Origin: Bacteroidota bacterium | GTDB taxonomy: Bacteria > Bacteroidota > Bacteroidia > UBA4408 | NCBI GenBank assembly: GCA_963169745.1 | Contig: CAUJCU010000005.1 | Span: forward strand, 1-64,000 | Length of the DNA stretch: 64,000 nt | Direction of reading: 5' to 3' | Shown: positions 4,030 to 39,547 of the stretch, piece after piece | Layout of the letters: each line of letters starts with the position of its first letter | Numbering within the stretch: the first letter of the stretch is position 1 | Translations under genes and position numbers: made by a program | The notes under the pieces: generated by a model | Seen by the model: only the letters and a program-made list of their open reading frames with translations | What the model was told of the DNA's origin: nothing | Databases searched by the model: none

Positions 4030-4611
4030 TTATTTCAAACGATTCGGATTGTCATTAATAAAGGCCTGCCAGCCTGAATAGCTTTTTTTCCCACCCTTTT
4101 GGTTATTTTGAAAATAATGGCACAAAGCAGCCGCAAGGGCATCAGTAGCATCAAGGGTTTCGCCTTCTAATTCGTTTTTTAGATTTAATATGCTTTTAAG
4201 CATAGCTGCAACCTGCTCTTTTGATGCATTCCCATTTCCGGTTACCGATTGTTTTATTTTACGGGGTTGGTACTCTGATACCGGAATATTTTTATGAACT
4301 GCAGCCGCAATAGCCACGCCCTGTGCGCGCCCTAATTTAAGCATTGACTGTACATTTTTCCCAAAAAAGGGGGCTTCTACAGATAGTTCATCGGGTAAGT
4401 ATTGCTCAATCAGGCCCAAAACACATTCAAAAATTTTTTTAAGCTTGAGCGCGTGATCCTCATACTTGCTTAATTGAAGCACACCAAGGGCAATAAGGCA
4501 GGGTTTATTGTTTTTAACCAACAACAGTCCATAACCCATAATATTGGTTCCGGGGTCAATCCCTAAAATAATTCGCTCTTTATTAACTTCTTTAGATACC
4601 TTAGCTAACAT
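4030..4611 (-). CDS. ruvC: Holliday junction resolvase RuvC
   Basis: A 193-residue endonuclease that cuts Holliday junctions during recombination together with RuvAB. It has the RNase H-like fold with the acidic catalytic residues in place: Asp19 in LGIDPGTNIMGYG, Glu79 in SVEAPFFG, and Asp154/Asp157 in DATDALAAALCH. The tail after residue 167 (YSGWQAFINDNPNRLK) is a C-terminal extension of a type I associate with RuvC in this phylum. The start gives 12 residues before the first beta strand, with no better internal Met. The gene is divergent from the flippase-like gene, with fewer than 50 bp between starts. Confidence 0.95.
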   Translation of the reverse strand: MLAKVSKEVNKERIILGIDPGTNIMGYGLLLVKNNKPCLIALGVLQLSKYEDHALKLKKIFECVLGLIEQYLPDELSVEAPFFGKNVQSMLKLGRAQGVAIAAAVHKNIPVSEYQPRKIKQSVTGNGNASKEQVAAMLKSILNLKNELEGETLDATDALAAALCHYFQNNQKGGKKSYSGWQAFINDNPNRLK

Positions 4612-4658
4612 AAACTTTATGAAAACTGCGTAAAATTAATATAATTGTATTGTCCCTA

Positions 4659-5636
4659 ATGCAAAAGGTTGTTTCTGTTTTAAAATCAAAATATTTTAGT
4701 TGGGCTATTCTAGCAGCAGCTTTTATTTTTTTAATTTTTAAATTTAATACTTATCGGGATAAAAATTTTGGTCAGCTTTTTACATCTCTTCTTTCTGAAG
4801 GGAATAAGGGGTATTTTTTAACTGCCTTTTTTCTTACTTTTTTAAATTACTCTATTGAGTCCTTGAAATGGCAAAAATTACTTAGCTGCTTACAAAAAAC
4901 ATCTTGGTTATCCGCCTTTCAATCGGTACTTACAGGGATATGCACCAGTATATTTACCCCTAACCGATCGGGTGAGGTAGTAGGTAAAGTTTTGTATCTT
5001 GACACGAATGAGAAAATGAAAGCTGCATTATTAAACTTTAGTGGCGGAATGGCACAAATGATTTGCACCTTTATTGCTGGTATTTGGGGTTTACTGCTTT
5101 ATACACAATACTTATCGAACGGGAGTATGGTATTGCCCTATCCTGAAATAATATTTGCATTTGCAATTATTGGTACGGTGTTGGCTTTTGTTGTTTATTT
5201 TAACCAACACCTCTTTTTTAACTGGCTTAGTCAAAAAAGGTGGGCACAAAAATTGGAATTAAGGTTTACTAAAGCTCAAGAAGTAACACGTATTACCCTG
5301 CTTCAGGTTCTCTTGTTGTCCATGAGTCGTTATCTTGTTTTTTCAGGGCAGTTGGTATTGTTGCTCCTGTTTTGCCAAATTGATGCCGGCATAGGTATTC
5401 TCTTTTTATTAAGCTGTATCTTTTTTTTACTGGTATGGTTTCTGCCCTCGTTTGCTTTACTTGAGTTAGGAATAAGGGGTTCTGTTGCCTATTTTGTATT
5501 TCAAGCTGTAAGTGCCGATCTGGAAAAGGCTTTATTATCAGTAGTTCTATTATGGATTATTAATGTTGCTTTTCCTGCTTTGGTAGGATGCTATTTTGTT
5601 TTTGTATCAACACAAAAAAAGAAAAATAAGTCATGA
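4659..5636 (+). CDS. Flippase-like integral membrane protein (UPF0104 / AglD-MprF N-terminal family)
   Basis: About 325 residues with seven to eight predicted membrane segments. Conserved family features include NRSGEVVGKVLYL near residue 110 and the Gly/Leu-rich C-terminal segment SFALLELGIRGSVAYF. The family includes the flippase domain of MprF and proteins that move lipid-linked substrates. I chose the ATG at 4659 over an in-frame TTG at 4650. The stop overlaps the start of the following glycosyltransferase (ATGA), so the two are translationally coupled. A joint role in making or flipping a glycolipid is inferred from that. Confidence 0.75.
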   Translation: MQKVVSVLKSKYFSWAILAAAFIFLIFKFNTYRDKNFGQLFTSLLSEGNKGYFLTAFFLTFLNYSIESLKWQKLLSCLQKTSWLSAFQSVLTGICTSIFTPNRSGEVVGKVLYLDTNEKMKAALLNFSGGMAQMICTFIAGIWGLLLYTQYLSNGSMVLPYPEIIFAFAIIGTVLAFVVYFNQHLFFNWLSQKRWAQKLELRFTKAQEVTRITLLQVLLLSMSRYLVFSGQLVLLLLFCQIDAGIGILFLLSCIFFLLVWFLPSFALLELGIRGSVAYFVFQAVSADLEKALLSVVLLWIINVAFPALVGCYFVFVSTQKKKNKS

Positions 5637-22939: not shown

Positions 22940-25801
22940 CTACTCCAGTTTTATGGCTTCATATTCTTTTTTGCTTAAACTAAATTCAGGGTCTATTACT
23001 TTTACTTCGTCATAAGTGAGTTCGTAAAGTTTGTAAACTAAGTTGTCGATTTCCTGCTCTAAGGAAGTTGTGTCTTTTCCTTCAGCTCTTCGCTGTTGAA
23101 TGTTTTTTGAAAGTTTAGATATTTTTCCTTTTGATAATTTTATTGGAACTTCTTTTAGGTATTTTATCGGAATTTTAGGAAACAACTCCTTTGCATTTTT
23201 GAAAAAATTACTGAAAAAATAGTTTACCCCTTTAGAATTGATAATTCCAAGTATCTCGTATAAGTCAATTTTATTTGATTTAGGCAACAAGTTATATACA
23301 TCACAAACATTGTAGTAATTTTCTGTGTCAAGATATGCAATGATTTCTTTTCCAATTCGTCTTACAAATATTTTGGGGTTTTCATAAATGGCTTTAGTTT
23401 TAAAATTAGATGTGTCACTAAAATCTACTTCTACAAATTTATTGTCAAATTGTAATTCATAACGATTAAAACATCTTCCAGCAATCAAAGGTTTTCTATT
23501 TCTTCCTTTGCTATCATATACATAATCAGAACTATAACCAAACTCTATTCCCCTTGCGAAATCAATAAAATCAGAAAGTTTATTAGATGCCTTTGACTGG
23601 ATTTTTTCAATTAAGTCTGATGTTTCTGTATTAATGTAAAAGTTGAAAATGTTTTGAGGAGTTGTCAAGAAATACTTTTGTTCAAATAAATTTAACTCGC
23701 TCTCAGCTAAGTCTCGGCTTGAGATTTTACCACATCTTAATTTTGATGAATCAATCTTCTGATTTTTAAAAGCGAAAATACACGAATCAACAGATGCACT
23801 TTCAAAAATATTTGAACCTAAGTCAATTATCATTTTAAGTGAAAAGTTTTCTAATGTGTGCTTACGTATATTGTTATAGCTAGGGTTTGTAGAAATGTTA
23901 CTTGGAATTATATACCACAATGCACCTTTATTGCTCTGCAACCTACCGCCTAATTCAATAAACAAAATATAGCTTTCAGTTTCAGAGTCTTTATTCTTGA
24001 ATCTATTCTTAAAAAACTGTTTGTCAATTTCTGTAAATCTTGCACCGTAGGGAGGATTTCCTATAACGATATCGAATCCATATTTATCGGTTATAGCAGA
24101 ATTTAGCACTTCGGGAAAGTCCAATTTCCAGTCAAAGAAATGAAGTGGTAGTTCGGGTTTGTTTTTAAGTTTCTGCAAGTCTTTTATGGAATTCTTCCAA
24201 CCAATAGTTTGCAAGTAAATTTCTGTTTGCTTTGCAATTGTTGCACCTGAACCTGTTGGCTGCTTCTCAATTCCTTTGGTGCTAATCATTAACTCCAATT
24301 GCGTTATTAGCAAATCAATTTTCAGTTTGCGTATGTTGGCTGCTAATTTTTTCTTGTGGCTGTCGGGGTTAAAAAACTCCTTTTGCTCTTTGCTTATCTT
24401 TTTAAGCAAGTCGCCTTTTTGTTTTGCCAAGTCTGCACCAAAAAGCCCGTGGCTGGTTTCGTTTAGTGTCCAGTCAATATCAATAATAGCATCGCCTAAT
24501 TTGCTTACCAGACTATTACCAACTACAATTTTATAATCGAGGTTCGGCAATGCCTTTGGTTTTTCTTCGTCAACAATCAAGCTTAACCAAAAACGCAATC
24601 GGGCAATGTCCACCGCACCTTTTTCAATGTCCACTCCGTAAATGCTGTTTTGTATGATGTTGAGCTTTACAGCACTGGCATCAAAGGTTTTGGTATTGCC
24701 GTGTTCAAAGGTGTGTAGGGTTTGTTTAGCTGTAAATATTTCGTGCAGCAAACCCATAGGGAAAGCACCCGAACCAATGGCAGGGTCGCAAATTTTTACA
24801 CTGTCTAAAGCATTGTGAAATTCGGCAGAATGTTTTTTGATGAGTTTTTTATCATCATCGTCCAATTTCTTTTTTAGTAGTTTTTCAATCAGTATGCGGT
24901 CTATCTGTTTGCCTGTGGTTTTATTATCGGCTTCCATAACCAATTGTCCTTTTCTGCCTTCGTTTGCTGAAAACAGTTTGGGTTGGTCGGGTTTATCAAA
25001 ACCAATATAGCCAACTACTTCGTAGCCTTTGTTTTCAAACCAAGTAGTGAGGTATTCAATCAAACTCTCCTGGCACATATAATGCACAATTTCCTTTGGT
25101 GTGTAGTATGCACCTTTGTCTTTGTTGTCTTCGAGTAAGTTTTCAAAAATATGCCCCAACATTTCAGGGTCAACTGCTACGGTGTGGTCGTTAGGGTCGT
25201 CTTCATAAATGGTAAAGTTGTATTGATTAAAGAAATCAAACAGGCTTTTGAACAAATTGGCAGGAAAAATAAGGTTGCGGTGTTTCTTGTCGTCTTCTTC
25301 AAATAAGCCACCGTTTAAATACGGAATACGGCAAGGTTCGCCTTTTACCAGTTCAATTATGTCGTCTTTGCGTTTGGTGTTGAGTGTGTCAAAAAACAGT
25401 TTTGATAATAATTCAGAATAAAACAGGTCGGGGTTTTTTGTATTCTTAAACAGGTTGGATAAAAAATCAAAATCTCCTTTGCCCCAATCGCTTTTTTCAG
25501 GCACACCTAACCAACCTTTTTTCTGAATGAAATACAGGAACACAATACGTCCCATTAATTTTTTGTTGAAATCACGAATGCCTTTTTCGTCACCGTTAAA
25601 TATGGTTTGCCGAATGTTTGGTTTTGAAACCATAAAGTCGCAAAAAATATCATAGTGCTTTTTGTATTCGTCAAAAAATGCTTTTGAAAGTTTCTCTACC
25701 GAGAAGGCTTCTTTTACATCATCTAAAGTAGCTTTGCTGCCTTTGTTGGCAATAGCTGTAAATCGTTCGGCTGCTGTTCGTGTGCTTTCACCTTCGCCCA
25801 A
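22940..25801 (-). CDS. Eco57I-like adenine-specific DNA methylase / restriction protein, main part (interrupted gene)
   Basis: A 953-codon open frame holding most of a class I SAM-dependent DNA methylase. An N-terminal helical region is followed by ENLLEDNKDKGAYYTPKEIV (about 220-240). The SAM motif DPAIGSGAF is at 339-347. The catalytic NPPY is at 582-585, marking N6-adenine methylation. The C-terminal part (about 690-880) looks like a TaqI/Eco57I target-recognition domain. The open frame begins at a TTG, not a natural start. Reading back in frame through PKRYTYVL reaches a TAA and then the 135-codon frame upstream. The two form one reading frame of 1097 codons with a single internal stop. 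Expression of this part would need reinitiation or readthrough. Confidence 0.85.
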   Translation of the reverse strand: MGEGESTRTAAERFTAIANKGSKATLDDVKEAFSVEKLSKAFFDEYKKHYDIFCDFMVSKPNIRQTIFNGDEKGIRDFNKKLMGRIVFLYFIQKKGWLGVPEKSDWGKGDFDFLSNLFKNTKNPDLFYSELLSKLFFDTLNTKRKDDIIELVKGEPCRIPYLNGGLFEEDDKKHRNLIFPANLFKSLFDFFNQYNFTIYEDDPNDHTVAVDPEMLGHIFENLLEDNKDKGAYYTPKEIVHYMCQESLIEYLTTWFENKGYEVVGYIGFDKPDQPKLFSANEGRKGQLVMEADNKTTGKQIDRILIEKLLKKKLDDDDKKLIKKHSAEFHNALDSVKICDPAIGSGAFPMGLLHEIFTAKQTLHTFEHGNTKTFDASAVKLNIIQNSIYGVDIEKGAVDIARLRFWLSLIVDEEKPKALPNLDYKIVVGNSLVSKLGDAIIDIDWTLNETSHGLFGADLAKQKGDLLKKISKEQKEFFNPDSHKKKLAANIRKLKIDLLITQLELMISTKGIEKQPTGSGATIAKQTEIYLQTIGWKNSIKDLQKLKNKPELPLHFFDWKLDFPEVLNSAITDKYGFDIVIGNPPYGARFTEIDKQFFKNRFKNKDSETESYILFIELGGRLQSNKGALWYIIPSNISTNPSYNNIRKHTLENFSLKMIIDLGSNIFESASVDSCIFAFKNQKIDSSKLRCGKISSRDLAESELNLFEQKYFLTTPQNIFNFYINTETSDLIEKIQSKASNKLSDFIDFARGIEFGYSSDYVYDSKGRNRKPLIAGRCFNRYELQFDNKFVEVDFSDTSNFKTKAIYENPKIFVRRIGKEIIAYLDTENYYNVCDVYNLLPKSNKIDLYEILGIINSKGVNYFFSNFFKNAKELFPKIPIKYLKEVPIKLSKGKISKLSKNIQQRRAEGKDTTSLEQEIDNLVYKLYELTYDEVKVIDPEFSLSKKEYEAIKLE

Positions 25802-25822: not shown

Positions 25823-26230
25823 TTAGGTTTTAATTTTTACAAATTCTCCGTCAGCATCATAACCTGTTAATTCTGAAACATAAGTAAAACGCCAATTGCC
25901 TTTTTCGGAATTGTGATAAGTAATAAAAGCAGCATCAATATCTTTCCAGTATTTGCGAAGCAAATTTCGTAAGCCTACACGGTTGCGTTCCAAAATAATA
26001 CCTTGTGCCAAGGTAACTTCAAACACGGCAATTTGGCGTTCAATACCGTTTTCGTTGAGTGTAATGTAACCCAACTTTTGCACCTGTAAAGCTACACTGG
26101 TATCAATACCTGTGAGTATTTCAGGTGTTGCCAACAAACGAGATTGGGTAAATGCTTCGCCCAAAAATTGTTTCCAATTGTTTTGGTTATAGCGTTGCTT
26201 GAATAAGTTATGAATTTGTTCGTATGTCAT
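25823..26230 (-). CDS. N-terminal part of the interrupted DNA methylase
   Basis: A 135-residue frame beginning MTYEQIHNLFKQRYNQNNW and ending VKIKT before a TAA at 25825-25823. It carries the conserved N-terminal domain of these helicase-linked methylases (for example FEVTLAQGIILERNRVGLRN and DAAFITYHNSEKGNWRFTYV), possibly nuclease-related. The next codons are in the same frame and continue the protein, so this is the front of the gene at 22940, cut off by a nonsense codon. A second, diverged copy of its first 18 codons lies at 26750-26810. Confidence 0.8.
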   Translation of the reverse strand: MTYEQIHNLFKQRYNQNNWKQFLGEAFTQSRLLATPEILTGIDTSVALQVQKLGYITLNENGIERQIAVFEVTLAQGIILERNRVGLRNLLRKYWKDIDAAFITYHNSEKGNWRFTYVSELTGYDADGEFVKIKT

Positions 26231-26244
26231 TATTCCTTTTTTTT

Positions 26245-26335
26245 GCCACGAATGCTTTTTAATTAGTGCATTAGTGGCTATTTTTTTATTTTATGCCATG
26301 AATACACGAATGTATTTTATTAGTGCATTAGTGGC
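26245..26335. repeat. Two tandem imperfect hairpins beside the GxxExxY gene
   Basis: Hairpin 1 (26245-26278) pairs gccacgaatgc with gcattagtggc. Hairpin 2 (26295-26335) begins gccatgaat and ends with the same tagtgcattagtggc. A further half copy (attcgtgtattagtggc) lies on the other side of the GxxExxY gene at 26726-26742. The shared right arms are separated by 57 bp. Confidence 0.6.
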
Positions 26336-26341
26336 TATTTT

Positions 26342-26716
26342 TTACAATATTATTCTTTTATAATTCATTTTTAATTCTCCAAAGTTTACTATTAAAGCAA
26401 GTTTATTTTGTGATACTTTTAAATAGTTTAAACCTTGTGCAATATGCTCATCTGCAATTCCTGCAATTCCCTTTACTTCTAAAATTATTTTATCAAAAAT
26501 CACAAAATCAGCATAAAATTTATGAGGCAAAATCACACCCTTGTAATTCACTGAGTATTCTTTTTCTCTTTCAAATTGTATTCCTGAGTTTTTAAACTCC
26601 CACTCCAAAGCATCTTTATACACTATTTCTAAAAAACCAGCTCCAAGGTTATTATGCACTTCCATACATATTCCAATTATTCTGTAGCTTTCTTCTTTGT
26701 AAATTATATTGTCCAT
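26342..26716 (-). CDS. GxxExxY protein
   Basis: A 124-residue protein with the family's defining motif in NNLGAGFLEIVYKDAL (G-x-x-E-x-x-Y, residues about 28-34). It continues with KYKG-like NYKGVILPHKFYADFVIFDKIILEVK and the C-terminal half IADEHIAQGLNYLKVS. The strands containing Asp (YADFV) and Glu-x-Lys (ILEVKG) resemble a PD-(D/E)xK nuclease core. Molecular function is not established. It lies as an insert between two copies of the methylase start and is flanked by hairpin repeats, which suggests a mobile cassette. Confidence 0.85.
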   Translation of the reverse strand: MDNIIYKEESYRIIGICMEVHNNLGAGFLEIVYKDALEWEFKNSGIQFEREKEYSVNYKGVILPHKFYADFVIFDKIILEVKGIAGIADEHIAQGLNYLKVSQNKLALIVNFGELKMNYKRIIL

Positions 26717-26749
26717 ACTAATTTTATTCGTGTATTAGTGGCTTCTTTT

Positions 26750-26810
26750 AATATTATCGTTTTGGGTTGTATCGTTGCTTGAATAGGTTATGTATTTGCT
26801 TGTATGTCAT
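26750..26810 (-). pseudogene. Remnant of a second methylase start
   Basis: The minus strand reads MTYKQIHNLFKQRYNPKR then stop, against MTYEQIHNLFKQRYNQNN in the intact copy at 26230. DNA identity over about 50 bases is roughly 85 per cent. One extra C shifts the frame, after which similarity fades. Its ATG overlaps the stop of the DUF1016 gene (TAATG), the same coupling used between helicase and DUF1016. This looks like the original start of the methylase gene. Confidence 0.65.
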
Positions 26811-27820
26811 TACTGGTTGAAATATTTATTAATTTTATCACTAATTTCTTTGCTGCTTGGTAGTAAATTTTGATAATTTTTAGGAAGTTTTTCGGATGTT
26901 GTATAAGTGGCCACACCAATAGGCATTGCACTTGTTTTTAAAGAATATTCTACAATGGTTCTGTCTTTGTTTTTGCAAATTATAATTCCTATAGCTTCAT
27001 TTTCATGTGGAAGTTTGATGGTGTTATTTAACACCGAAAGATAAAACTCCATTTTACCTTTGTATTCAGGTAAAAACTCGCCAATTTTCAACTCAATTGC
27101 AATAAGACATTGCAGTTGGCGATGATAAAGTAATAAATCAATAAAATATTCTTTATTACTTACTTCAATTTTATATTGATTTCCAATAAAAGTGTAATTA
27201 TGACCCAATTCAGTTAAAAAACTACGAATATTGTTGATTAAGGTTTGTTCCAATTCACTTTCAGAATGTTCATCGGCAAGGTTTAAAAAATCAAAAGTAT
27301 ATTCGTCTTTTACAGCTAAATAGGCTTGATTCTTAATATTATGTGGTAGAGTATTTTCAAAGTTGGTTTGGTTTAAAAGATATTTTTCAAATGTTTTATT
27401 TTCAATTTGATGGATTAAAACATTCTTTGTCCAACCAAATTTTTTGGTTGAGAGTATGTAAAACTGTCGTTCTTGATTGTTTTTGCATTTATTTAAAATG
27501 GCGATATGTTTTGTCCAACTGATTTCTCCAACCAGTGGTTGGAGAAATTCAACACCTTGATATTCATTGTAAAATTGTGCCATTAACCAAAGGTTTGTAG
27601 ATGAAAACCCTCCAATATTTGGAAACTCCAATTGAAGTTCTTTTGATAAAGTAGGAACAATGGCTTTCCCCCAACTTTCAGATTGTTTTTCTGAAATTGA
27701 TTTACCAATTTCCCAGTACAAATTGATGAGTTGTGTATTTACAACTTTAAGAGCTTCGTATTGGGCTTGCCTAACTTTTTGCTTTATTTCGGATATAAAA
27801 TTGGCTTGAGTTAGTTCCAT
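26810..27820 (-). CDS. DUF1016 (YhcG-type) PD-(D/E)xK nuclease domain protein
   Basis: A 336-residue protein of the YhcG family. The N-terminal part (about 1-165) has the conserved NLYWEIGKSIS, GFSSTNLWLMAQFY and SWTKHIAILNKCKN. The C-terminal nuclease domain shows FIDLLLYHRQLQCLIAIELK, placing Asp, Glu and Lys of the PD-(D/E)xK core, then YKGKMEFYLSVLN. The stop of the helicase gene overlaps its ATG (TAATG), and its own stop overlaps the methylase-start remnant in the same way, so it belongs to the operon. It could be the DNA-cutting part of the system or an accessory passenger. DUF1016 genes are frequent guests of restriction operons. Confidence 0.85.
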   Translation of the reverse strand: MELTQANFISEIKQKVRQAQYEALKVVNTQLINLYWEIGKSISEKQSESWGKAIVPTLSKELQLEFPNIGGFSSTNLWLMAQFYNEYQGVEFLQPLVGEISWTKHIAILNKCKNNQERQFYILSTKKFGWTKNVLIHQIENKTFEKYLLNQTNFENTLPHNIKNQAYLAVKDEYTFDFLNLADEHSESELEQTLINNIRSFLTELGHNYTFIGNQYKIEVSNKEYFIDLLLYHRQLQCLIAIELKIGEFLPEYKGKMEFYLSVLNNTIKLPHENEAIGIIICKNKDRTIVEYSLKTSAMPIGVATYTTSEKLPKNYQNLLPSSKEISDKINKYFNQ

Positions 27821-30800
27821 TATTCAAAGGATTCTGAAATGATTAAAACCGGTTTTTCTACTTTGCCTTTTTTGCCTTTTTGAGCAGTACTCAAATCAAC
27901 ATTGTATTGTACTGCAATTTTATCTATTTCGGCTAAAGCAATATTCTGGTTTGCTTTCTTCTTTTGTAAACGGTCAATATCGGTTGGCAAATTGGTGTAT
28001 CTACCAATATCAATCAGCACCACAATTTTTTGAATATTCTCTTTTTGCTGCTCGCTTACTTGCGGGTATTTCACCAAGTCGGACAAAAACTTTTTAGCTC
28101 GTTGAGCCACACCGCCCAATGCTTCGGGGTCGGTTTGCGATTGTGCAATTTTATGTTCGAGCGTTTCAAAATGCTCTAATGCTTTGTTAACGTGTTCGTG
28201 GTGTGTTGCAATTAACGGAGCATTTTTTTCTTTTTCGTCTGCCGAAAATATTTTGAACGCTTCAATAGGTGTAATTTCTTTGGGTTGGTTGTTGCTGCTC
28301 ACCCAATAGAATTCAAATTTTTTGTCGGTCTTTAAAAATGCGGCTGTTCCGTTTTGCAGTTCTGGTTTCTTAATATCGGTTGCACTTCTTCCTGTTCTTG
28401 ATTTTAAAGGCAGCTTTTTAATATTATCGAACCAAGCACGGTTTGCTTTTTTGAAATGGCGTAAGAAGTATAAAAACTTCAAGCGTTCGTCTTCTTCTTC
28501 CTTATATGTTCCGCTAAAAAGTTTTACTTCATCCAAAATTTCTTCGGTTGAAAAAACCTGATTGTCTTCGCCAAATGCAGTATGGAAAGCCTGAATTTTC
28601 ATAAAGGCGGTTTTGTTCAATCGTATTTGCGAATCGCCTTGTGCCGAAGGATAAAACACATAGTTGTAAATGGCACTTGCTTTTGTTCCGATACGATTTA
28701 CACGCCCTATCCTTTGCATCAGTTTAGTAGAGTTCCAAGGCGTGTCGTAGTGAATAATTACATTAGAACGGTGCAAGTTCACACCTTCTGCCAATACTTC
28801 GGTGGTGATGATGATGTTGTATTCATTCACTTGTTTGTCGGCAGCCCAGTTTGCATCAAAGTTGGTTACAATGGTATCATACATTAGTTTACGGTTGGCA
28901 GCCGAAATAACCAATACATCTTTTCTTCCAGCATTTTCAAGAGCTTTTGCCAAGTATTCAACAGTGTCTTTTGATTCCGAGAAAATCACAAGTTTACCTT
29001 CTACATTGGTTTTCTTATTCAAAAATTGTTTAGTGAGTTGAGCAATAAAAACATCCATTTTCGGGTCATTCTCAATAGCGTTCCAACCTTTTACTAATTC
29101 CTCTATATGTTTAGAATCCTGTTTTAAACTTTCAATAAATCCGTCTTTGAAATCTGAACTTTTAAAAGTTTGGTTCTTTGGATTTTCTTCGCTTAATCGT
29201 TCAATTTCTTTTTCAATATCTTCTTCACTCCAACCTTTGTCCAATAGCTTGTTTACATTAGTGTCGGGAGCAATAAATACCTTATCGTTCTCAAACATTT
29301 CAATCATTCGGTCGGTTGCTGTTTGAAAATTAACTAATGATTTTTTGAATGCATAAAAACTACTTTCCAGTCGTTTTATCAATTGGGTTTTCATTATAAA
29401 TGCCAACGATTTAGAAACCGTTTCCGCATTCTCGTAATACTTGTCTTGTATTTTCTGTTTTAGTCCTGCAATGGCTTGGTAACGGCTATATTTTAGTTTA
29501 TCTTCATCAGTGAGGTAGAAAACGGTTTTGTGAAAAAGTTCATTCAGCCTTTCATCCATTAGGTATTCTACCTTTTTAGGTGGGTCAACTTTTGGAAATT
29601 TAATACCTTGTTCGTCTAAGTCTAATTTGTATTCGGGAATATTTTCAAGGTCGGTTCGTGTTCTTCGAATGGTAATAGGTTCAATTACATTTCTGCGGAT
29701 TTGTCCGTAAATGGCTCTTAGCTTGTTTACATCTAATTCGTCAAAACGCTTTAACGTTTTGTATTGCTCCATTAATGGAGCAAAGAATGATGTGAGGTTG
29801 GTATTGGGCAATGTGGATTGTCTTGCATCCTGAAACATTTGAATTTGATAAAAAATGTCATCAGGTCTGTTGTTCAAAGGCGTTGCCGAAACTAAAATTA
29901 CTTTTTTCTGTAAGCCATCAATCAGTCCTTTGTTTGCTCTTGGGCTTTTGCAAATCAGTTGTAAGTTTTGAAATGCCCCTGTTTGGTAATTACGGAATTT
30001 GTGGGCTTCGTCCACAATTATCAAGTCGTAATCTTCTTTACTCCAATAGTCTTGATGTCCTTCAAGAATTTTTTCAAGACTTCCGTTGGTAATGAACTTG
30101 GTGTATTTATCAAGTTGAAAATCTTTGAACGTGTTTTTCCAGTTTTTCTCAACTGCTGGCGGATAAACAATTAAAATTTTGGTATTGTCTCTTCCGTTTT
30201 GCATTAAAAACTTTTTTGCCACCATTGCAGCAATTACGGTTTTTCCTAAACCCACAACGTCAGCCAATAAAAAGCCGTTGTGTTTTAAAAGCATATTGAA
30301 GCCTTCGTTTACTGCATCAACTTGATAAGAAAGTTTTTTGAAGTTTTGGGGCAAGTCGCCCATTGAGTCGGGGTCGTAGTCAATGTTTTTGCCGAAGTAT
30401 TCAGTCAATAGTTTGATGTAAAGTTCAAATGGAGTTATTTCTTCATTCAGATACGTTTCCTTTTTGATGTTCTGAATGTCAACTGGCAAAATGTCCACCG
30501 ATTCAGCCCACAATTTTTCAAATTCATCTGTTGCAAATTTTACATCAGGATATTCCGTTAGCTGAACATTGAATTCGTAATTGTAAAAACTACCACCACC
30601 AAGTCCAGCATCTGTCAAGTTTGATGAACCTGTAATTGCTGTTGCAGGAGTATGTTGGTTAAATGGCTCAGGTCGTAAAATGTAAACTTTGGCGTGTATT
30701 TTCTTTTCGGGATGGGCTTTGATTTGAATTTTCTTTTCAATCAAGTCGTCAATGAACTGCAAAATTCCTTTCTCTGTGTCTTTGTCGTAATTGGCTTTTT

Positions 30801-31092
30801 CAATGTCTTCTTGAATTTTCTTGATAAAATCTTCTTTGGTCTTTTCGTGATTTTTGAAAAATTCAAGTCCTTCTCTTTGAGCATCTGCAAGCATCTTGTC
30901 AATGTTGATGCCTACCAAAATTCTGATGTGTGGCACTTTGTCTAAAAACGGTCTAATGCGGAAATAGCCTGATGCCCGAAAGTAACCTACTAAAGCGTCA
31001 AAGTATTTTATGTTGGGGTTGTATGTAAAAACCCCTTCAAACTTGCTGATTAAGGTGTTCTCTTCGCTATTAGTAAAAAACTTTGTTAGCAT
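27820..31092 (-). CDS. PLD-domain SNF2-family helicase, defence operon
   Basis: A 1090-residue fusion. Residues about 1-200 are a phospholipase D-like nuclease domain with HAKVYIL (His133, Lys135) and GSSNLTDAGL (155-164). The usual Asp after HxK is Arg. An SNF2-type superfamily 2 helicase follows, with Walker A ADVVGLGKT (277-285), DEAHKFRN (361-368) and, in the second RecA lobe, QRIGRVNRIG. Such proteins pair with Eco57I-like methylases in restriction-like systems. It starts the leftward operon with DUF1016 and the methylase. The layout recalls parts of DISARM (SNF2, PLD, adenine methylase), but DrmA and DrmB are absent here. Confidence 0.88.
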   Translation of the reverse strand: MLTKFFTNSEENTLISKFEGVFTYNPNIKYFDALVGYFRASGYFRIRPFLDKVPHIRILVGINIDKMLADAQREGLEFFKNHEKTKEDFIKKIQEDIEKANYDKDTEKGILQFIDDLIEKKIQIKAHPEKKIHAKVYILRPEPFNQHTPATAITGSSNLTDAGLGGGSFYNYEFNVQLTEYPDVKFATDEFEKLWAESVDILPVDIQNIKKETYLNEEITPFELYIKLLTEYFGKNIDYDPDSMGDLPQNFKKLSYQVDAVNEGFNMLLKHNGFLLADVVGLGKTVIAAMVAKKFLMQNGRDNTKILIVYPPAVEKNWKNTFKDFQLDKYTKFITNGSLEKILEGHQDYWSKEDYDLIIVDEAHKFRNYQTGAFQNLQLICKSPRANKGLIDGLQKKVILVSATPLNNRPDDIFYQIQMFQDARQSTLPNTNLTSFFAPLMEQYKTLKRFDELDVNKLRAIYGQIRRNVIEPITIRRTRTDLENIPEYKLDLDEQGIKFPKVDPPKKVEYLMDERLNELFHKTVFYLTDEDKLKYSRYQAIAGLKQKIQDKYYENAETVSKSLAFIMKTQLIKRLESSFYAFKKSLVNFQTATDRMIEMFENDKVFIAPDTNVNKLLDKGWSEEDIEKEIERLSEENPKNQTFKSSDFKDGFIESLKQDSKHIEELVKGWNAIENDPKMDVFIAQLTKQFLNKKTNVEGKLVIFSESKDTVEYLAKALENAGRKDVLVISAANRKLMYDTIVTNFDANWAADKQVNEYNIIITTEVLAEGVNLHRSNVIIHYDTPWNSTKLMQRIGRVNRIGTKASAIYNYVFYPSAQGDSQIRLNKTAFMKIQAFHTAFGEDNQVFSTEEILDEVKLFSGTYKEEEDERLKFLYFLRHFKKANRAWFDNIKKLPLKSRTGRSATDIKKPELQNGTAAFLKTDKKFEFYWVSSNNQPKEITPIEAFKIFSADEKEKNAPLIATHHEHVNKALEHFETLEHKIAQSQTDPEALGGVAQRAKKFLSDLVKYPQVSEQQKENIQKIVVLIDIGRYTNLPTDIDRLQKKKANQNIALAEIDKIAVQYNVDLSTAQKGKKGKVEKPVLIISESFE

Positions 31093-31846: not shown

Positions 31847-34800
31847 TTAATTATTTGACTTAACTAGTCGTAAACTCATACTCTGACCTTGACTGTTTGT
31901 TGCCTGAATGGTGTAAATACCTGGTGCCCATTGAGCACTTTCAATCTTATAATATTCATTACTTGTAGCAGTACTACTCCACACTATTTGTCCCAGTGCA
32001 TCAATGATGCGAACATATACAGATGCATTTTCGTCTGATTGAATTACAAATCTATACGCTTCGTTAAACGGATTCGGATAGGCCTGTAAACTCATTTGTT
32101 GTTCGTTAATGTTTTGCTCTACAAGTTGTTGTTCCCCGTCTGCATGGGTTTCAACGGTATATTCACGTGCAAAAGCTCCTGAATTGGCAATACCAATGGT
32201 GCATGAGCTTCCCCAATTACTCCATGTGTTGTAAACAAATGCCCGCACCCGTACAGAGTAGCTATGTCCCTGCTGCAACGCTGGAACAAGGCTGTTAAGC
32301 GGCAAATAAACCAGAGCAGATTGCTTTAGTTGAATTTGCTGTGTGTTTATATCGGTAAATTCAAATTCATATACCGTAGCCATCGAAACAGGAGCACAAG
32401 CCACAACAGAGTTTATGCTTAAATTAAGTACATCACAAAACTGAGGACGCAGTTGTGTAGGCAATACTCCGGTAATAGCCGGGTTTTCTCTTAGCCCTAT
32501 GCGGCAACTAGTAGAGAAATTACCCCACAAGCCCCCAACTTTTGCACGTACTCTACAGTTATATTGGGTATTCCATTGTAATCCAGGGCTTACCTGCTGT
32601 GTGGTAACAATGTACCAGTTTGTGATAGCGATGCCCTGAACAATATTGTTCAAAGTATCACTAAACTCCCACTCATAGTGTGTAGCACCGGCTACGGGAT
32701 TACAGGCTATTTGTGCAATTGGAGTTAGGTTCGTTTTTCCACAATCAATAGTACGAAGCGTGGTTGGTGGCACATTATTTACACAAGGAGATACAAGTGC
32801 ATTAGCACTTACAGTACAACCCTCGGCATTGCTTACAGTTACCGTATAGGTTCCTGATTGATAAATGGTAATGGCAGGTGTTTGTTCGCCTGTATTCCAC
32901 ATATATGATGTATAACCATTTCCGGCATCAAGTACCGTTTGATTATTAGGGCAAAAGTTATTGGCACCACTAATAATTGGGGTATTCGGTAAACTGTTTA
33001 CAATTACTGTAAGGGTATTTGATGTTACCGAACAACCCGCAGGTGAAGAAATTACACAATAATAGCTACCTGAACTTGCCGCATTATAAGATGCTGCGTT
33101 AGCTCCTGTTATGCTGTTATTATTTTGATACCATTGATATTGATAAACACCCGAGGCCAATGCCGAAAGCGTTACTGTTGAGTTTTCGCAAATTGTTGTA
33201 TTCCCAATAGCGCTAATCGTTGAATCAATAGAGTCAATAACCGTAAGTTCGTAGTTTGCTGAATAAGCCAAACATCCTGTAACGGTGTTTGTTGCTGAAA
33301 CCATATAAACACCCGATTCATACATTTCATATTCATGACTATCGGCTCCGCTAATAGGGTTGCCGTTAAAATACCACTGATATGAAACAAGATTGTTTTG
33401 CGGTACACTAACCTCCACAAAACTACCATAACAAATAGAAGTGTTGTTTCCGTTATTTGAACTTAAAGTAACATCGGGTAGTGAATTGATTAAAATATAC
33501 AAGCTATTTGAAACGGCTGTACAATTTTGATCTAATATTACCTGACAATTATAGTATCCGCTTTGTAATGGTGCATAAACAGAGTCTGTTGCCCCTAAAA
33601 TTGGATCACCATTTAAAAACCACTGATGTGTTAAGCCTGTTCCATGTGTGGCAATGAGTTTTATTTCTTCTTGAGCACAAATAGTATCATTTCCAGTCAA
33701 AATCGAAACTTGGGCAGATGAACCATCGTTTACATATACTTGTATGGCTCCGGTAACAACCTGACATCCGGCATTATTAATAACTACACAACTATAATTT
33801 CCGGCAGTAGAAGCTTCGTATGTACTATCAATAGCATTATTTATTAAAGTGCTGTCTTGATACCATTGGTATGTAAAAGGCGGTAATCCATGAGCATGTG
33901 CTGTTAAGCTTACTAATTGGCCCGGACAAATATTCGTATTTCCTGAAGTAGATGTAAACACCGTAGGATTAGAGTATTCGTGCGTTGAAAATACAGGTGT
34001 TGTTACAGAACAATTTCCGTTTTGAATAACCGCATAATAATATCCGGAACCCGAAATCAGAAGGCTATCGTTATTTGCGTTTGGAATTAAGAAATATTGG
34101 TAATTTCCTCCTTGATAATACCACGAGTATTGGTTTCCAACTCGGTTTTCAAGTATTGCCCAAACATTCTCTCCTGAACAATAAGATGTAGATCCACTAA
34201 AGGTTATATTGTTTGAAGGGGCTACATTTAACACAACCTCTAAAGGATCTGATAGGGCACTACACCCATTTCCATTATTAACACTTACCGTATATAAGCC
34301 ATCTGTTACGGCTAAACACAAACTACTGTCGGCACCAGCAATTGGGCTGCCATTCAAAAACCACTGATACGTATAGTTAATTCCGGTGTTGGTGTATAAC
34401 TGAATGCTATCACCTGTACAATTAACTGGTGAAACATCATAAAATATGGTAGCTAGTGCACCACCACTGGCATCTACAGCAATAAACTGCGACACAGATG
34501 TGCAACTTTGATCTAAAACTAAACTCACATTATATGAACCACTCTGTGATGCCGTATAAACACTGTCTTGAGCACCTTGAATTGGGTCACCATTTAAATA
34601 CCATTGATAGGTAATACCATTACCCCCAATGGTATATAAATTTACAGTTCCTCCCGGGCAAAACTCTGTAGCTCCATCAGCATAAATTGGGGCATTACTG
34701 CCACCATTAACATAAACAAAAACAGATGAAGAAGTCGCAGAACAGTTATATGTATTGGTAATCATTACACTATAATGGCCTGTTGCGTCTGCCATAAATT

Positions 34801-37800
34801 CATTATTCGTTGCAAAAGGAATCAATAAACTATCATTATACCATTGATAAGTATAATTGGGTACATTGCCTGCACTTAAAACAACTGTATTACCCGGACA
34901 AATATTTGTATTTCCGGATGCTGTTACTTGAGCAGTAGGTGATGGATTAACAGTAATGTTAACGCTGTTACTAAATGAATAACAAGCATTGCTGTTTGTA
35001 ACCTTAACTTGGTAATTACCACTAGTTACAGCATTGTATGTTTCTGTATAATACCCTAAAGGAAAACCATTCAAATACCATTCATACGTTAACCCCACTC
35101 CTGTATTGGCATTTAACGTTAAAGAGTTGCCGCTACAGAAGGTAGTATTCCCGCTATAGTTAATAATTGCAACAGGAGCTTCATATACGGTAATATTCAT
35201 AACATTACTGGTATCAGCACAATTCCCATTTAAGGTAACGATACAAGAATATAATCCGCTTTGATTTACGTTTAAAAAGGCATCTGTAGCATCATTTAAC
35301 GGTAAATTATTATGAAGCCACTGATAGGTTAATCCCGCTCCTGTATTGGCATTAAGTTGAACAGTGCCTCCCATGCAAAAAGCCGTATCACCAAAAGTAG
35401 TAATTGCCGCTTGTGGGGCATTACTAACCTGTACCCATATACCTGAAGAAAGACTCGAACAATTAGCATTTGAGCTTACCAATACCGTATAAGTTCCTTC
35501 TTGATTAGCTAAATAATTGGGATCTGTTGCTCCGTTAATATCCTGACCGTTTAACATCCATTGGAAGGAATAGCCCGGATTATTTACAGCTTGAAGTAAT
35601 ACTTGTTGATTACTGCAAATATTCGTATTTCCTAATGGGGTAATGGTGGCAACTGGTAAAGGATCAAGGCTAATGCTGATGGAGCTTGAACCCTGACAAC
35701 CGGTTTGTAGGTCGGTTAAAACGAGAGCATAGCTTCCAACTTGTGATGCATTTATATTAGAAGCATAGCTTATAGGTCCAATTCCATTGAGATACCAACT
35801 ATAGCTATAATTTCCATTGTTTCCGTATAAATTAACTGATGATCCGTTACAGAATTGGGTAGGCCCATCAGGTGTAATTTCAGCAAGCGGGCTAGGGTTT
35901 ACTTGTATCAAAACACTATCAGAAACAAGAGAACAATTGCCGTTTAAAGTAACAATAACTGAAAAATATCCGCTCGAATCGGCAGTATAAGTTTGTCCTG
36001 TTGCATTGTTTATAAGTTGTCCGTTTTGATACCATTGGTAACTTAGTCCTGTGCCACTATTAGCATAAAGTGCAACCTGACCACCTTGGCAAAATGTAAG
36101 TGGTGTATAATAACTTATTTCGGCAAGCAGGCCTGTTATTTGGGTTACTGCAGAAGTGCTGGAACAGCCATTGTTGTTGGTAATTGTAACTGAATAGGAG
36201 CCTAACTGTGCGGTAGTTAAAGTGCTGTCGGTTTGATTAGGCAAAGGTATTCCGTCTTTATTCCACTGATAAGTGCTGTTATTATTACCTCCACCAGCAA
36301 TTAGCGTAGTTTGCTCTCCAGTACAAATGGCCGTGTTACCATCAACAGAAATGGTTGCTGTTGGGCTTGAATAGTATGTTATTTGTACCTGATTGCTGCT
36401 ATTGGAACAATTATTACTGTCTGTAATTGCTACAGAATAAAGCCCTTGCAAAGTAGCCTCATAAGTTGCAGTAGTAACCCCCGTAAAGATATTATTAAAA
36501 TACCAATAATACTGTAATCCGGTTTCGGGATTTGCTTGTAAGTACAAGGAACTTCCGGAACAAATATTTTGATTTCCTGAAGGGGTAATTGAAATTGAAG
36601 GAGTTGGATTAACCGTTACATAAATACTGTTTGATATAGAAAAACAATTATTATTTAGTGTAACCTTACACGTATAATTACCTTGGGTATTAGCCGTATA
36701 AACTGCATTTATAGCCCCGTTAATATCATTTCCATTGAGTTGCCATTGATAGGTTAATCCGGCACCTGTGTTAGCTGATAATTGTGTATTGCCGCCCTCA
36801 CAAAAAGTAATTGGTAAAAGATTTGTAATTTCTGCTGTTGGATTGGCCATAATATCAACATAAAGCACATCTGAACTTGCACTACAATTGTTACTATCTA
36901 CAACTTCTACAAAATAATCTCCCGAATTTGTTACCGAATAAGTTGCATTGGTTTCATTATTTAGTAATAAGGCTCCATTATACCATTGATAACTCCAACC
37001 CAAAACGTTATTTGCCGTTATGGTTAATGGTTGGCCGCTGCATAAATTCATGTTTCCTGATGGAGTAATACTTACCGAAGGAGATGTAAAATTACTTATG
37101 CTAATTGTTGCTGTATTCGTACATCCTTGACCGCTGGTAACTATAACCGTATAATTTCCTGGATTAGATACTGTTAAGCTTGGTGCTCCATAGTATAAAT
37201 TAATATTGTTATGAAACCAGTTATACGAATAATTAACTCCGGAACTGGCAGTTAAACTTACACTAGAGCCCGGACAAAAAGTTAAAGGGCCATCGGCTGA
37301 GATTTCAGCAACAGGAATGGTATTAATAATTACCTGTACCGGGCTAGATGTAGTCGTGCACAAATTATTTAGCGTTACATCTACCGTATATGAACCTGCT
37401 TGGTTGGCTACATAAACTTGATTGGTATCGTAAGTTAATGGTATTCCGTTTCGATACCACTGGTATCTCAGGTTGGCACCCGATGTGGCTACTAAAGATA
37501 CAGAATCGCCCGCACAAAAGGTAGTTGGCCCCGCAGGTGAAATAACCGCATTAGCTGCTGATGCTCCTTGAATGGTTATTGTGTTCGTAGAAGTATGGGT
37601 ACAATTTTGAGCATTATTAACAAGTACACTATACACCCCGGCAACTGTAGCTCCATAAGTGCTATTTGTGGCATTAAAAATATCTACACCATTTAGTTGC
37701 CATTGGTAGCCTACTCCTTGTTGGGCTCCATCAGCTACAAGCTGAATAGTACCTCCCGGACATAATACAGAAGAATTTCCATCAATTAAAACGGTAGCCG

Positions 37801-39547
37801 GATTGGGTAAAGGATTCACTGTGATATACTCTATAATTGTATCGGCACAACCCACACCAGAATTATAACCTATTAATATATAGTTTATGTTGCCGGCTGG
37901 TTGAGTAATTATATTATTCCCATTTTGACCTGTAGATGGATTCCAGGCATAGTTAGCAGCTCCTGAGGGCTGAAGCGTAACACTTTCGCCCAAACAAACT
38001 GTACTTCCGCTAGAATTAATACTAAGCTGTGGCACCGTTCCCATAGTGATAGTCGTGTTTGCGGTGTTGATACAGCCCAAAGCATCTGTTCCTTGAACCG
38101 TATAAGTAGTGTTTACTGTTGGGCTTGCTGTTACCTGATTTCCTACGTTACTACTTAAAGTAGCTGCCGGTGACCATACATAAGTATCTGCGCCATAGGC
38201 ATTCAAAACAGTTGAATAACCTGCACACACCGTAGCAGAAGAGGGATTAACATACACATTAGGTAAAGGATTTACCGTAACTAAAGTACCGGAAGAGGCA
38301 TAACATCCATTAACTCCAAGCCCCGTAGCAGTATAATAAGTAGTTGTTTGTGGACTGGCAATTACCTGCGCACCATTTGCGGTGTTTAGACCCAATGAAG
38401 GGCTCCACACATAGCTGTCTGCCCCCGAAACGGTAAGCGTTGAAGAGCCTCCTACACAAAACTCAGGGTCACTAGACTGCACCACCAGTACTGGTGCCGG
38501 TTTAATCACAATAAATACGGTATCAGAGGCCGAGCATCCGTTTGAATTGGTACCGGTTACAATATAGGCTGTAGAACTAGTAGGACTGGCCGTAACTACT
38601 GAGCCATAGCTTTGGTCTAATCCTGTTACCGGACTCCAGCTATAACTTTGCGCTCCACTAGCCATTAAATTGGTAGAGCCCCCTTCACAAAACTCATCAT
38701 TTACAGCACTGGCAGATACATTCGGCAAATTACTTACAGCAACTTGAGCCGATTTTAAGACCACACAACCATAAACCGTATCAGTAGCCGTAATATTATA
38801 TGTTTGATTGCTTTGCGGAAAAGCCGAAACCTGTGATCCGGCTGTAGTATCCAATCCGATAGCCGGACTCCATAAATAAGACATTGTATTGCTGGAACTA
38901 CTTAAATTAATTGTTCCGCTATCGCCCAAACATATTGTTTGAGTAGCTGGAGTAACTGTAACAATAGGATTACCGACAACTTTGATATAGGCTGTTTTAA
39001 TTAAAGTATCAGTTCCCAATGCATTCGTTGCAATTAAAGTTACCGTGTAATTTCCAGGAGTATTATAGCATATATTAGTTGGATTTTGAAGATTTGAGCC
39101 GGTAATATTTGCTCCTACAAAAGTCCATTGCCAGGAATATGGAGTATATAAACTTAAATCGGTAAAGTTAATACATGTTCCAACACAAATAGTGGAATCA
39201 CTAGCTGTAAATTGAACTACCGGCTTAAGAGGATTGGGTTGTGCGTAACACTCTTTGGCATAGCCGTCAGCAATTCCACCGGCATATATGTTTTGTGAAC
39301 TTTGATCAAAACATGACTTATGGCTGCCATCGGCAGAACCCCCAGCGTAGATATTTAGGACGCTTTGTGAAAAGCAGTTTTTCCCATAGCCTTGGCCTAT
39401 TCCTCCTTGATAAATATTTAATGACGATTGTATAAAACTACCTCTGTCAAACCCATCGGCTGCACCTCCACGATACTGTCCGTAGCTTTTAACATGAATA
39501 CATATAAACGTCAGTATAATTAAGTAAATAGATATACGATATTTCAT
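31847..39547 (-). CDS. Giant Ig-repeat surface protein with T9SS type A sorting domain
   Basis: A 2566-residue protein. After the signal peptide (1-23, ending KSYGQ) come four 20-residue repeats of the form Y-x-GG-xADG-xxxxCFxQS-xxNI (about 25-105). A PKD domain follows (about 110-190). Next are six units with the pattern W-SPxxGL ... V-ASP ... Y-xVTGT. About two dozen Ig-like units follow, with the pattern YQWYxNGxxIxGA ... Y ... GxYxVxVT ... C. Two fibronectin-like segments near the end share the pattern V-x-Y-EFE and R-VRAxV. The sorting domain (LQAYPNPFNEAYRF) is last. Each Ig unit has a conserved Cys pair. Likely an adhesin or surface fibre. Confidence 0.88.
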   Translation of the reverse strand: MKYRISIYLIILTFICIHVKSYGQYRGGAADGFDRGSFIQSSLNIYQGGIGQGYGKNCFSQSVLNIYAGGSADGSHKSCFDQSSQNIYAGGIADGYAKECYAQPNPLKPVVQFTASDSTICVGTCINFTDLSLYTPYSWQWTFVGANITGSNLQNPTNICYNTPGNYTVTLIATNALGTDTLIKTAYIKVVGNPIVTVTPATQTICLGDSGTINLSSSSNTMSYLWSPAIGLDTTAGSQVSAFPQSNQTYNITATDTVYGCVVLKSAQVAVSNLPNVSASAVNDEFCEGGSTNLMASGAQSYSWSPVTGLDQSYGSVVTASPTSSTAYIVTGTNSNGCSASDTVFIVIKPAPVLVVQSSDPEFCVGGSSTLTVSGADSYVWSPSLGLNTANGAQVIASPQTTTYYTATGLGVNGCYASSGTLVTVNPLPNVYVNPSSATVCAGYSTVLNAYGADTYVWSPAATLSSNVGNQVTASPTVNTTYTVQGTDALGCINTANTTITMGTVPQLSINSSGSTVCLGESVTLQPSGAANYAWNPSTGQNGNNIITQPAGNINYILIGYNSGVGCADTIIEYITVNPLPNPATVLIDGNSSVLCPGGTIQLVADGAQQGVGYQWQLNGVDIFNATNSTYGATVAGVYSVLVNNAQNCTHTSTNTITIQGASAANAVISPAGPTTFCAGDSVSLVATSGANLRYQWYRNGIPLTYDTNQVYVANQAGSYTVDVTLNNLCTTTSSPVQVIINTIPVAEISADGPLTFCPGSSVSLTASSGVNYSYNWFHNNINLYYGAPSLTVSNPGNYTVIVTSGQGCTNTATISISNFTSPSVSITPSGNMNLCSGQPLTITANNVLGWSYQWYNGALLLNNETNATYSVTNSGDYFVEVVDSNNCSASSDVLYVDIMANPTAEITNLLPITFCEGGNTQLSANTGAGLTYQWQLNGNDINGAINAVYTANTQGNYTCKVTLNNNCFSISNSIYVTVNPTPSISITPSGNQNICSGSSLYLQANPETGLQYYWYFNNIFTGVTTATYEATLQGLYSVAITDSNNCSNSSNQVQITYYSSPTATISVDGNTAICTGEQTTLIAGGGNNNSTYQWNKDGIPLPNQTDSTLTTAQLGSYSVTITNNNGCSSTSAVTQITGLLAEISYYTPLTFCQGGQVALYANSGTGLSYQWYQNGQLINNATGQTYTADSSGYFSVIVTLNGNCSLVSDSVLIQVNPSPLAEITPDGPTQFCNGSSVNLYGNNGNYSYSWYLNGIGPISYASNINASQVGSYALVLTDLQTGCQGSSSISISLDPLPVATITPLGNTNICSNQQVLLQAVNNPGYSFQWMLNGQDINGATDPNYLANQEGTYTVLVSSNANCSSLSSGIWVQVSNAPQAAITTFGDTAFCMGGTVQLNANTGAGLTYQWLHNNLPLNDATDAFLNVNQSGLYSCIVTLNGNCADTSNVMNITVYEAPVAIINYSGNTTFCSGNSLTLNANTGVGLTYEWYLNGFPLGYYTETYNAVTSGNYQVKVTNSNACYSFSNSVNITVNPSPTAQVTASGNTNICPGNTVVLSAGNVPNYTYQWYNDSLLIPFATNNEFMADATGHYSVMITNTYNCSATSSSVFVYVNGGSNAPIYADGATEFCPGGTVNLYTIGGNGITYQWYLNGDPIQGAQDSVYTASQSGSYNVSLVLDQSCTSVSQFIAVDASGGALATIFYDVSPVNCTGDSIQLYTNTGINYTYQWFLNGSPIAGADSSLCLAVTDGLYTVSVNNGNGCSALSDPLEVVLNVAPSNNITFSGSTSYCSGENVWAILENRVGNQYSWYYQGGNYQYFLIPNANNDSLLISGSGYYYAVIQNGNCSVTTPVFSTHEYSNPTVFTSTSGNTNICPGQLVSLTAHAHGLPPFTYQWYQDSTLINNAIDSTYEASTAGNYSCVVINNAGCQVVTGAIQVYVNDGSSAQVSILTGNDTICAQEEIKLIATHGTGLTHQWFLNGDPILGATDSVYAPLQSGYYNCQVILDQNCTAVSNSLYILINSLPDVTLSSNNGNNTSICYGSFVEVSVPQNNLVSYQWYFNGNPISGADSHEYEMYESGVYMVSATNTVTGCLAYSANYELTVIDSIDSTISAIGNTTICENSTVTLSALASGVYQYQWYQNNNSITGANAASYNAASSGSYYCVISSPAGCSVTSNTLTVIVNSLPNTPIISGANNFCPNNQTVLDAGNGYTSYMWNTGEQTPAITIYQSGTYTVTVSNAEGCTVSANALVSPCVNNVPPTTLRTIDCGKTNLTPIAQIACNPVAGATHYEWEFSDTLNNIVQGIAITNWYIVTTQQVSPGLQWNTQYNCRVRAKVGGLWGNFSTSCRIGLRENPAITGVLPTQLRPQFCDVLNLSINSVVACAPVSMATVYEFEFTDINTQQIQLKQSALVYLPLNSLVPALQQGHSYSVRVRAFVYNTWSNWGSSCTIGIANSGAFAREYTVETHADGEQQLVEQNINEQQMSLQAYPNPFNEAYRFVIQSDENASVYVRIIDALGQIVWSSTATSNEYYKIESAQWAPGIYTIQATNSQGQSMSLRLVKSNN

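Follow-up and report, generated by a model that had tools for sequence, protein, structure and literature searches.

A GxxExxY nuclease cassette between two copies of a methylase start: a putative mini-element that spares its neighbour gene in Bacteroidota

The operon and its doubled methylase start

The window, that is, the whole stretch of 64,000 nucleotides analysed here, carries on its minus strand a phage-defence operon in the order helicase, DUF1016/YhcG nuclease gene, GxxExxY gene and methylase, the last opening at position 26230 (Table 1). Codon 136 of the methylase is an in-frame TAA (25823-25825), where the orthologues have GAA (KIKTEPKRYTYV) and read on. The methylase is therefore split or broken, unless the stop results from a sequencing error. 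On the same strand, positions 31847-39547 hold an ORF of 2566 aa in which many PKD-like repeats and a sorting-like C-terminal tail were recognized by eye.

Table 1. Genes, repeats and hairpins at the doubled methylase start, in window coordinates.
Feature	Position	Strand	Basis
Helicase, PLD + SNF2	27820..31092	-	family searches
DUF1016/YhcG nuclease gene (DUF1016_N + YhcG_C)	26810..27820	-	family searches
Copy A, methylase-start relic (MTYKQIHNLFKQRYN followed by a frameshift)	26756..26812	-	direct repeat
Left terminal repeat GCCACTAATACACGAAT	26726..26742	-	repeat search
GxxExxY gene, 124 aa, PD-(D/E)XK	26342..26716	-	TIGR04256 / PDDEXK_3 profiles
Right hairpin 1, GCCACTAATGCACTAAT...ATTCGTGTATTCATGGC	26295..26335	-	repeat search and folding
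Right hairpin 2, GCCACTAATGCACTAATTAAAAAGCATTCGTGGC	26245..26278	-	repeat search and folding
Copy B, opening stretch of the current methylase ORF	26177..26232	-	direct repeat
N-terminal methylase ORF, 135 codons, to in-frame TAA	25823..26230	-	orthologues: GAA
Remaining methylase, Eco57I / TaqI_C, type IIG-like	22940..25801	-	family searches

The beginning of the methylase gene is present twice. The upstream copy (copy A) opens within the stop of the DUF1016 gene (CAGTAATG; a TAATG overlap) and the downstream copy (copy B) opens the methylase ORF, with the GxxExxY gene and its hairpins between them. The ungapped direct repeat spans 52 nt (26181-26232 and 26761-26812) at 87% identity, and an alignment with one gap extends to 57 nt at 86% identity (E about 1e-13 to 1e-14). 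The repeat score was 71, while the maximum among mismatched locus pairs was 28. The original prediction had described a doubling at about 85% identity, an upstream copy overlapping the DUF1016 stop, and a GxxExxY gene with hairpin repeats in between, and all of these were recovered. Two of its details were corrected. The abandoned copy, said to comprise 18 codons, is indeed a duplicate, but it runs for about 15-18 codons until a one-base insertion throws it out of frame. The copy called working does open the methylase ORF, but this ORF stops at the TAA after 135 codons.

The product of the GxxExxY gene matched TIGR04256 with an E value of 5e-39 (133 bits, cut-off 35) and the Pfam family PDDEXK_3 with an E value of 3e-35 (121 bits, cut-off 22). 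Among 40 aligned GxxExxY proteins, residues G27, E30, Y33, D70, E80 and K82 are invariant, and D70, E80 and K82 are present in the window copy. A single-sequence structure model of the protein reached a pLDDT of 33, too low to be informative, and the sole matches in a PDB search were to T7 endonuclease I, at non-significant E values (0.6-0.8). ORF and family searches revealed no transposase in the window cassette. Both right hairpins were more stable in folding than their shuffles, one with a z score of -4.6 (as RNA) and the other with -4.4 (as DNA); folding of the left hairpin was weak. The inverted-repeat score of the window cassette was 24, the 95% null threshold being 25. Dispersal of the REPIN kind was rejected, since in the genome of the window the repeat words are confined to the cassette, and in two other genomes they cluster solely near cassettes. 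Carriage by viruses was likewise rejected: no relative turned up in two scans of viral contigs or in phage records, against eight plasmid records.

Operons without the cassette and the origin of the two copies

Scanning the contigs of 84,980 species yielded eleven related operon loci. At L044, L045, L046, L050 and L052 the methylase start overlaps the helicase stop (TAATG; GAATAATGA and following), and helicase and methylase lie side by side at L047 and L048. The methylase directly follows the DUF1016 gene at L051 and L053. A different gene (4330-5186, BRO-like by eye) separates helicase from methylase at L049, and L054 gave only a partial methylase match with a helicase upstream. L004, from the window's own family, has a single methylase start after an intergenic stretch. 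At every orthologous locus inspected at the junction, both a second methylase start and a GxxExxY match were absent. Cassette-free operons thus show the uninterrupted single start that the original prediction expected, with the methylase joined either to the helicase by TAATG or straight to the DUF1016 gene, and none of them keeps two copies. Depending on the genome, the helicase/methylase junction holds a DUF1016 gene, a BRO-like gene (by eye), a GxxExxY gene or none, and is therefore a site of gene addition. The DUF1016 gene of L053 has AATCCTTTGAATAAT at either end; addition of DUF1016 may also have preserved the junction.

As a measure of the operon backbone, 1500 nt at the helicase end and 1500 nt at the methylase start were compared with the other loci. 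Identity to the window came to about 92% for L044, L045 and L050 and to about 85% for L051 and L053, which bear DUF1016; by sequence comparison, the nearest orthologous operons of the window are without the DUF1016/YhcG gene. The DUF1016 gene of the window is 77% identical to those of L051 and L053. Copy B is 98% identical to L045 over 45 nt and has two private changes, both synonymous; in copy A the 45 nt contain four private changes, besides the inserted base that shifts its frame. Because copy B fits the operon backbone while copy A carries private changes, copy B is by this comparison the native, conserved start and copy A the outlier, decaying or foreign.

This assignment reverses the part of the original prediction in which the cassette took copy B from a related allele to replace the 5′ end and copy A was the original start. 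In favour of such an import, the two copies show 6 differences over 45 sites, most of them synonymous; but copy B agrees with the downstream body and with the nearest orthologue, copy A is the odd one, and at another locus (L110) the two copies of a doubled gene end are 98% identical. We consider import of copy B improbable. A mosaic of alleles deserves more weight, although we hold it to be rather doubtful. It supposes that DUF1016 and the first 18 methylase codons (copy A), perhaps together with the cassette, came from a diverged operon, copy B being native and the doubling a recombination scar. The closeness of the backbone to operons lacking DUF1016, and its distance from those bearing it, are what a mosaic would leave, the divergence between A and B is of the order seen between alleles, and the codon 9 TTA and the GAATAATG prefix are common to B and L045 and missing from A. 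Yet the TTC at codon 10 of copy A is found elsewhere only in B and L045, its frameshift and private changes are typical of decay, and other cassettes freshly duplicate whatever gene adjoins them. The single synonymous site at codon 9 would have A branch off ahead of B and L045. If the duplication arose on insertion and the copies then drifted, one reversal is needed; if A was acquired from a nearby allele, none is; about 50 nt are too short to settle the choice between the two.

GxxExxY cassettes and doubled gene ends at other loci

GxxExxY genes were found in 57 of the 118 Bacteroidota genomes searched. The set assembled from Bacteroidota comprises about 130 loci, counted without regard to kinship among them. 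Inverted repeats around the gene exceeded the 95% level of a null made of mismatched locus pairs at 70 of 108 loci, and the 99% level at 43. They are composed of two to four short words, of the types CACGAAT, CACGGAT, CGCAAAG and CACAGAG. When inverted-repeat sequence was masked, direct repeats with a score of at least 36 flanked 16 of 135 loci versus none of 233 control windows drawn from those loci (Fisher p 6e-8). This fraction overstates the doubling of gene ends, because the high-scoring repeats at L129, L183 and L023 are hairpin arrays or larger tandem duplications; L110 and L168, both among the 16, are one locus. Only about 5-7 of the roughly 130 loci show clear doubling of a gene end, and at most GxxExxY loci no duplication was visible. 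Some cassettes sit exactly between a stop codon and a start codon, and at L017, L034, L042 and L119 the cassette abuts the start codon with no visible duplication.

Filled and empty sites were also compared at the miaB-sigma54 junction of Flavobacterium (L061-L090), among species whose adjacent gene is at least 85% identical. This junction holds at least three types of GxxExxY cassette, an unrelated gene, or nothing, and a search for a doubled gene start at the miaB locus found none. Two arrangements of another kind were observed in the set. L129 has an exact 172-bp direct repeat around its GxxExxY gene, with a second GxxExxY gene adjoining. At L096, L097 and L098 (G061, G033, G045), and also on G170:C17, the GxxExxY domain lies within an open frame of 883-896 aa, perhaps a fusion.

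The clearest doubling was seen at L110, where the terminal 42 bp of hsdS (LYGSLSQKAFRGEL) are found again beyond the element at 98% identity, both copies directly abutting the element ends TGTCTGAA and TTCAGACA. The related hsdS locus L198 is empty: its positions 1448-1592 align to the end of the L110 hsdS up to and including the left copy, its positions 1552-1686 align to the right copy and the downstream DNA, and the overlap of 41 bp between the two alignments corresponds to a single copy of the stretch doubled in L110. L110 and L198 together thus give a target duplication with a related empty site; the window is consistent with the same arrangement but diverged. These fresh doublings (98% identity at L110, a single copy at L198) point to duplication at insertion. 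Another hsdS end, at L194, is doubled over 89 bp at 90% identity, the copies again abutting the element ends. At L101 a C-terminus (DDYEKIL..) is repeated on both sides of the cassette and likewise on both sides of a gene-less repeat unit, and the end of a convergent gene is doubled around the cassette of L133. At L026 and L022 the repeats are probable relics of a DUF6090 start, and are called no more than probable because arrays of paralogous DUF6090 genes (L022, L024, L029) blur them. As the original prediction had anticipated, a neighbouring gene is doubled in a similar manner at further GxxExxY loci (L110, L194, L101, L133). Since cassette-free orthologues have a single start and gene ends are doubled elsewhere, its proposal that the insertion leaves the neighbour readable is upheld.

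Doubling and insertion might also have been separate, a small tandem duplication of the junction having come first and the cassette having later landed between the copies. Gene ends can be tandemly doubled near a cassette that does not separate them: at L037 the 3′ end of carB is doubled upstream, on one side of the cassette, and the coding parts of the two copies clearly differ while the non-coding parts after them are nearly identical. However, the excess of direct repeats flanking GxxExxY genes over control windows and the direct contact of the repeats with the element ends in L110 and L194 make such a chance order very improbable.

The pattern is not confined to a single protein family, because it recurs with another gene or with none. 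In L205 (reverse strand, 1501-2109) a four-helix-bundle gene (TIGR02436, E 1e-30) lies between doubled hsdS 3′ ends, in a cassette that has inverted repeats of its own. Four-helix-bundle genes were detected in 152 of the 198 Bacteroidota genomes searched, and inverted repeats exceeded the 95% null at 15 of 31 TIGR02436 cassettes in this phylum. At L200 and L201 the hsdS 3′ end is doubled with no gene between the copies; L200 retains a small palindrome and L201 a remnant ending in TTCAGACA.

A putative gene-sparing mini-element

We favour, with a probability of roughly 55%, the reading that the cassette is a transposon-like mini-element that makes long target duplications. The doubling, the inverted repeats, the empty sites, the recurrence at other loci and the intact catalytic residues are features of the sequences themselves; that a single event brought both duplication and insertion at the window locus, and that the GxxExxY nuclease takes part in mobility, we infer from them. 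An element of about 0.5 kb, with hairpin or inverted-repeat ends and the GxxExxY gene, would have entered the DUF1016/methylase junction. Insertion of such elements could duplicate tens of base pairs of target, about 40-90 bp where the case is clear. Where the duplicated stretch crosses a gene boundary, each side would be left with a complete gene end, so the neighbour gene would survive, and selection would retain the duplications that span such a boundary. The spare copy, copy A in the window, would then decay, from 98% identity to about 80% or less. Attack on the hairpin ends by a junction-resolving nuclease would be an attractive mechanism, the sole hint of it being the T7 endonuclease I match, which was non-significant.

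Among known systems, the cassette most resembles the intervening sequence (IVS) of 23S rRNA genes. In Coxiella it measures 428 nt, with a 28-bp stem around one ORF, and it has been described as selfish; RNase III cuts the stem-bounded element out of the RNA (PMC4990558). The cassette resembles it in size and in terminal inverted repeats that form a stem around one ORF, but the IVS carries an S23/four-helix-bundle ORF (TIGR02436) and lies in an rRNA gene, whereas the ORF of the window belongs to TIGR04256 and its cassette lies at a junction of protein genes. By analogy, processing of the cassette hairpins in RNA is possible as a second trait. Long direct repeats of variable length are also produced on insertion by IS1549 and IS1634 (8-514 bp), for which there was no mechanistic model as of 2008 (PMC2266710). 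The cassette shares this property with them, but they are elements of about 1.5-2 kb with a DDE transposase, and the cassette has about 0.5 kb and a PD-(D/E)XK protein. REP/REPIN sequences with RAYT likewise place a small gene between palindromes; RAYT is, however, a tyrosine HUH transposase and the palindromes are dispersed, whereas the cassette has neither property and bears direct repeats at its ends. The gene-less inverted-repeat units beside some cassettes (L026, L101) are similar to MITEs, from which the window copy differs in carrying a gene and in that multicopy spread was not seen. As far as passages and titles of the open-licence literature tell, which is a weak indication of absence, none that names GxxExxY deals with this subject.

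More tentatively, the GxxExxY and four-helix-bundle (S23) cassettes might form one unrecognized class of mini-elements of about 0.5 kb. Its members would share inverted repeats made of short words, insertion at gene ends, often those of restriction or defence genes, and target duplications of unusual length that restore the host gene, with the GxxExxY cassettes moved by or with their own PD-(D/E)XK nuclease. GxxExxY and four-helix-bundle genes are widespread, small and unexplained in Bacteroidota. If they belong to gene-sparing mini-elements, a single explanation would cover both their odd distribution and the hairpins that surround them, and an element of half a kilobase would offer a simple system for tracing the origin of target duplications that are long and variable.
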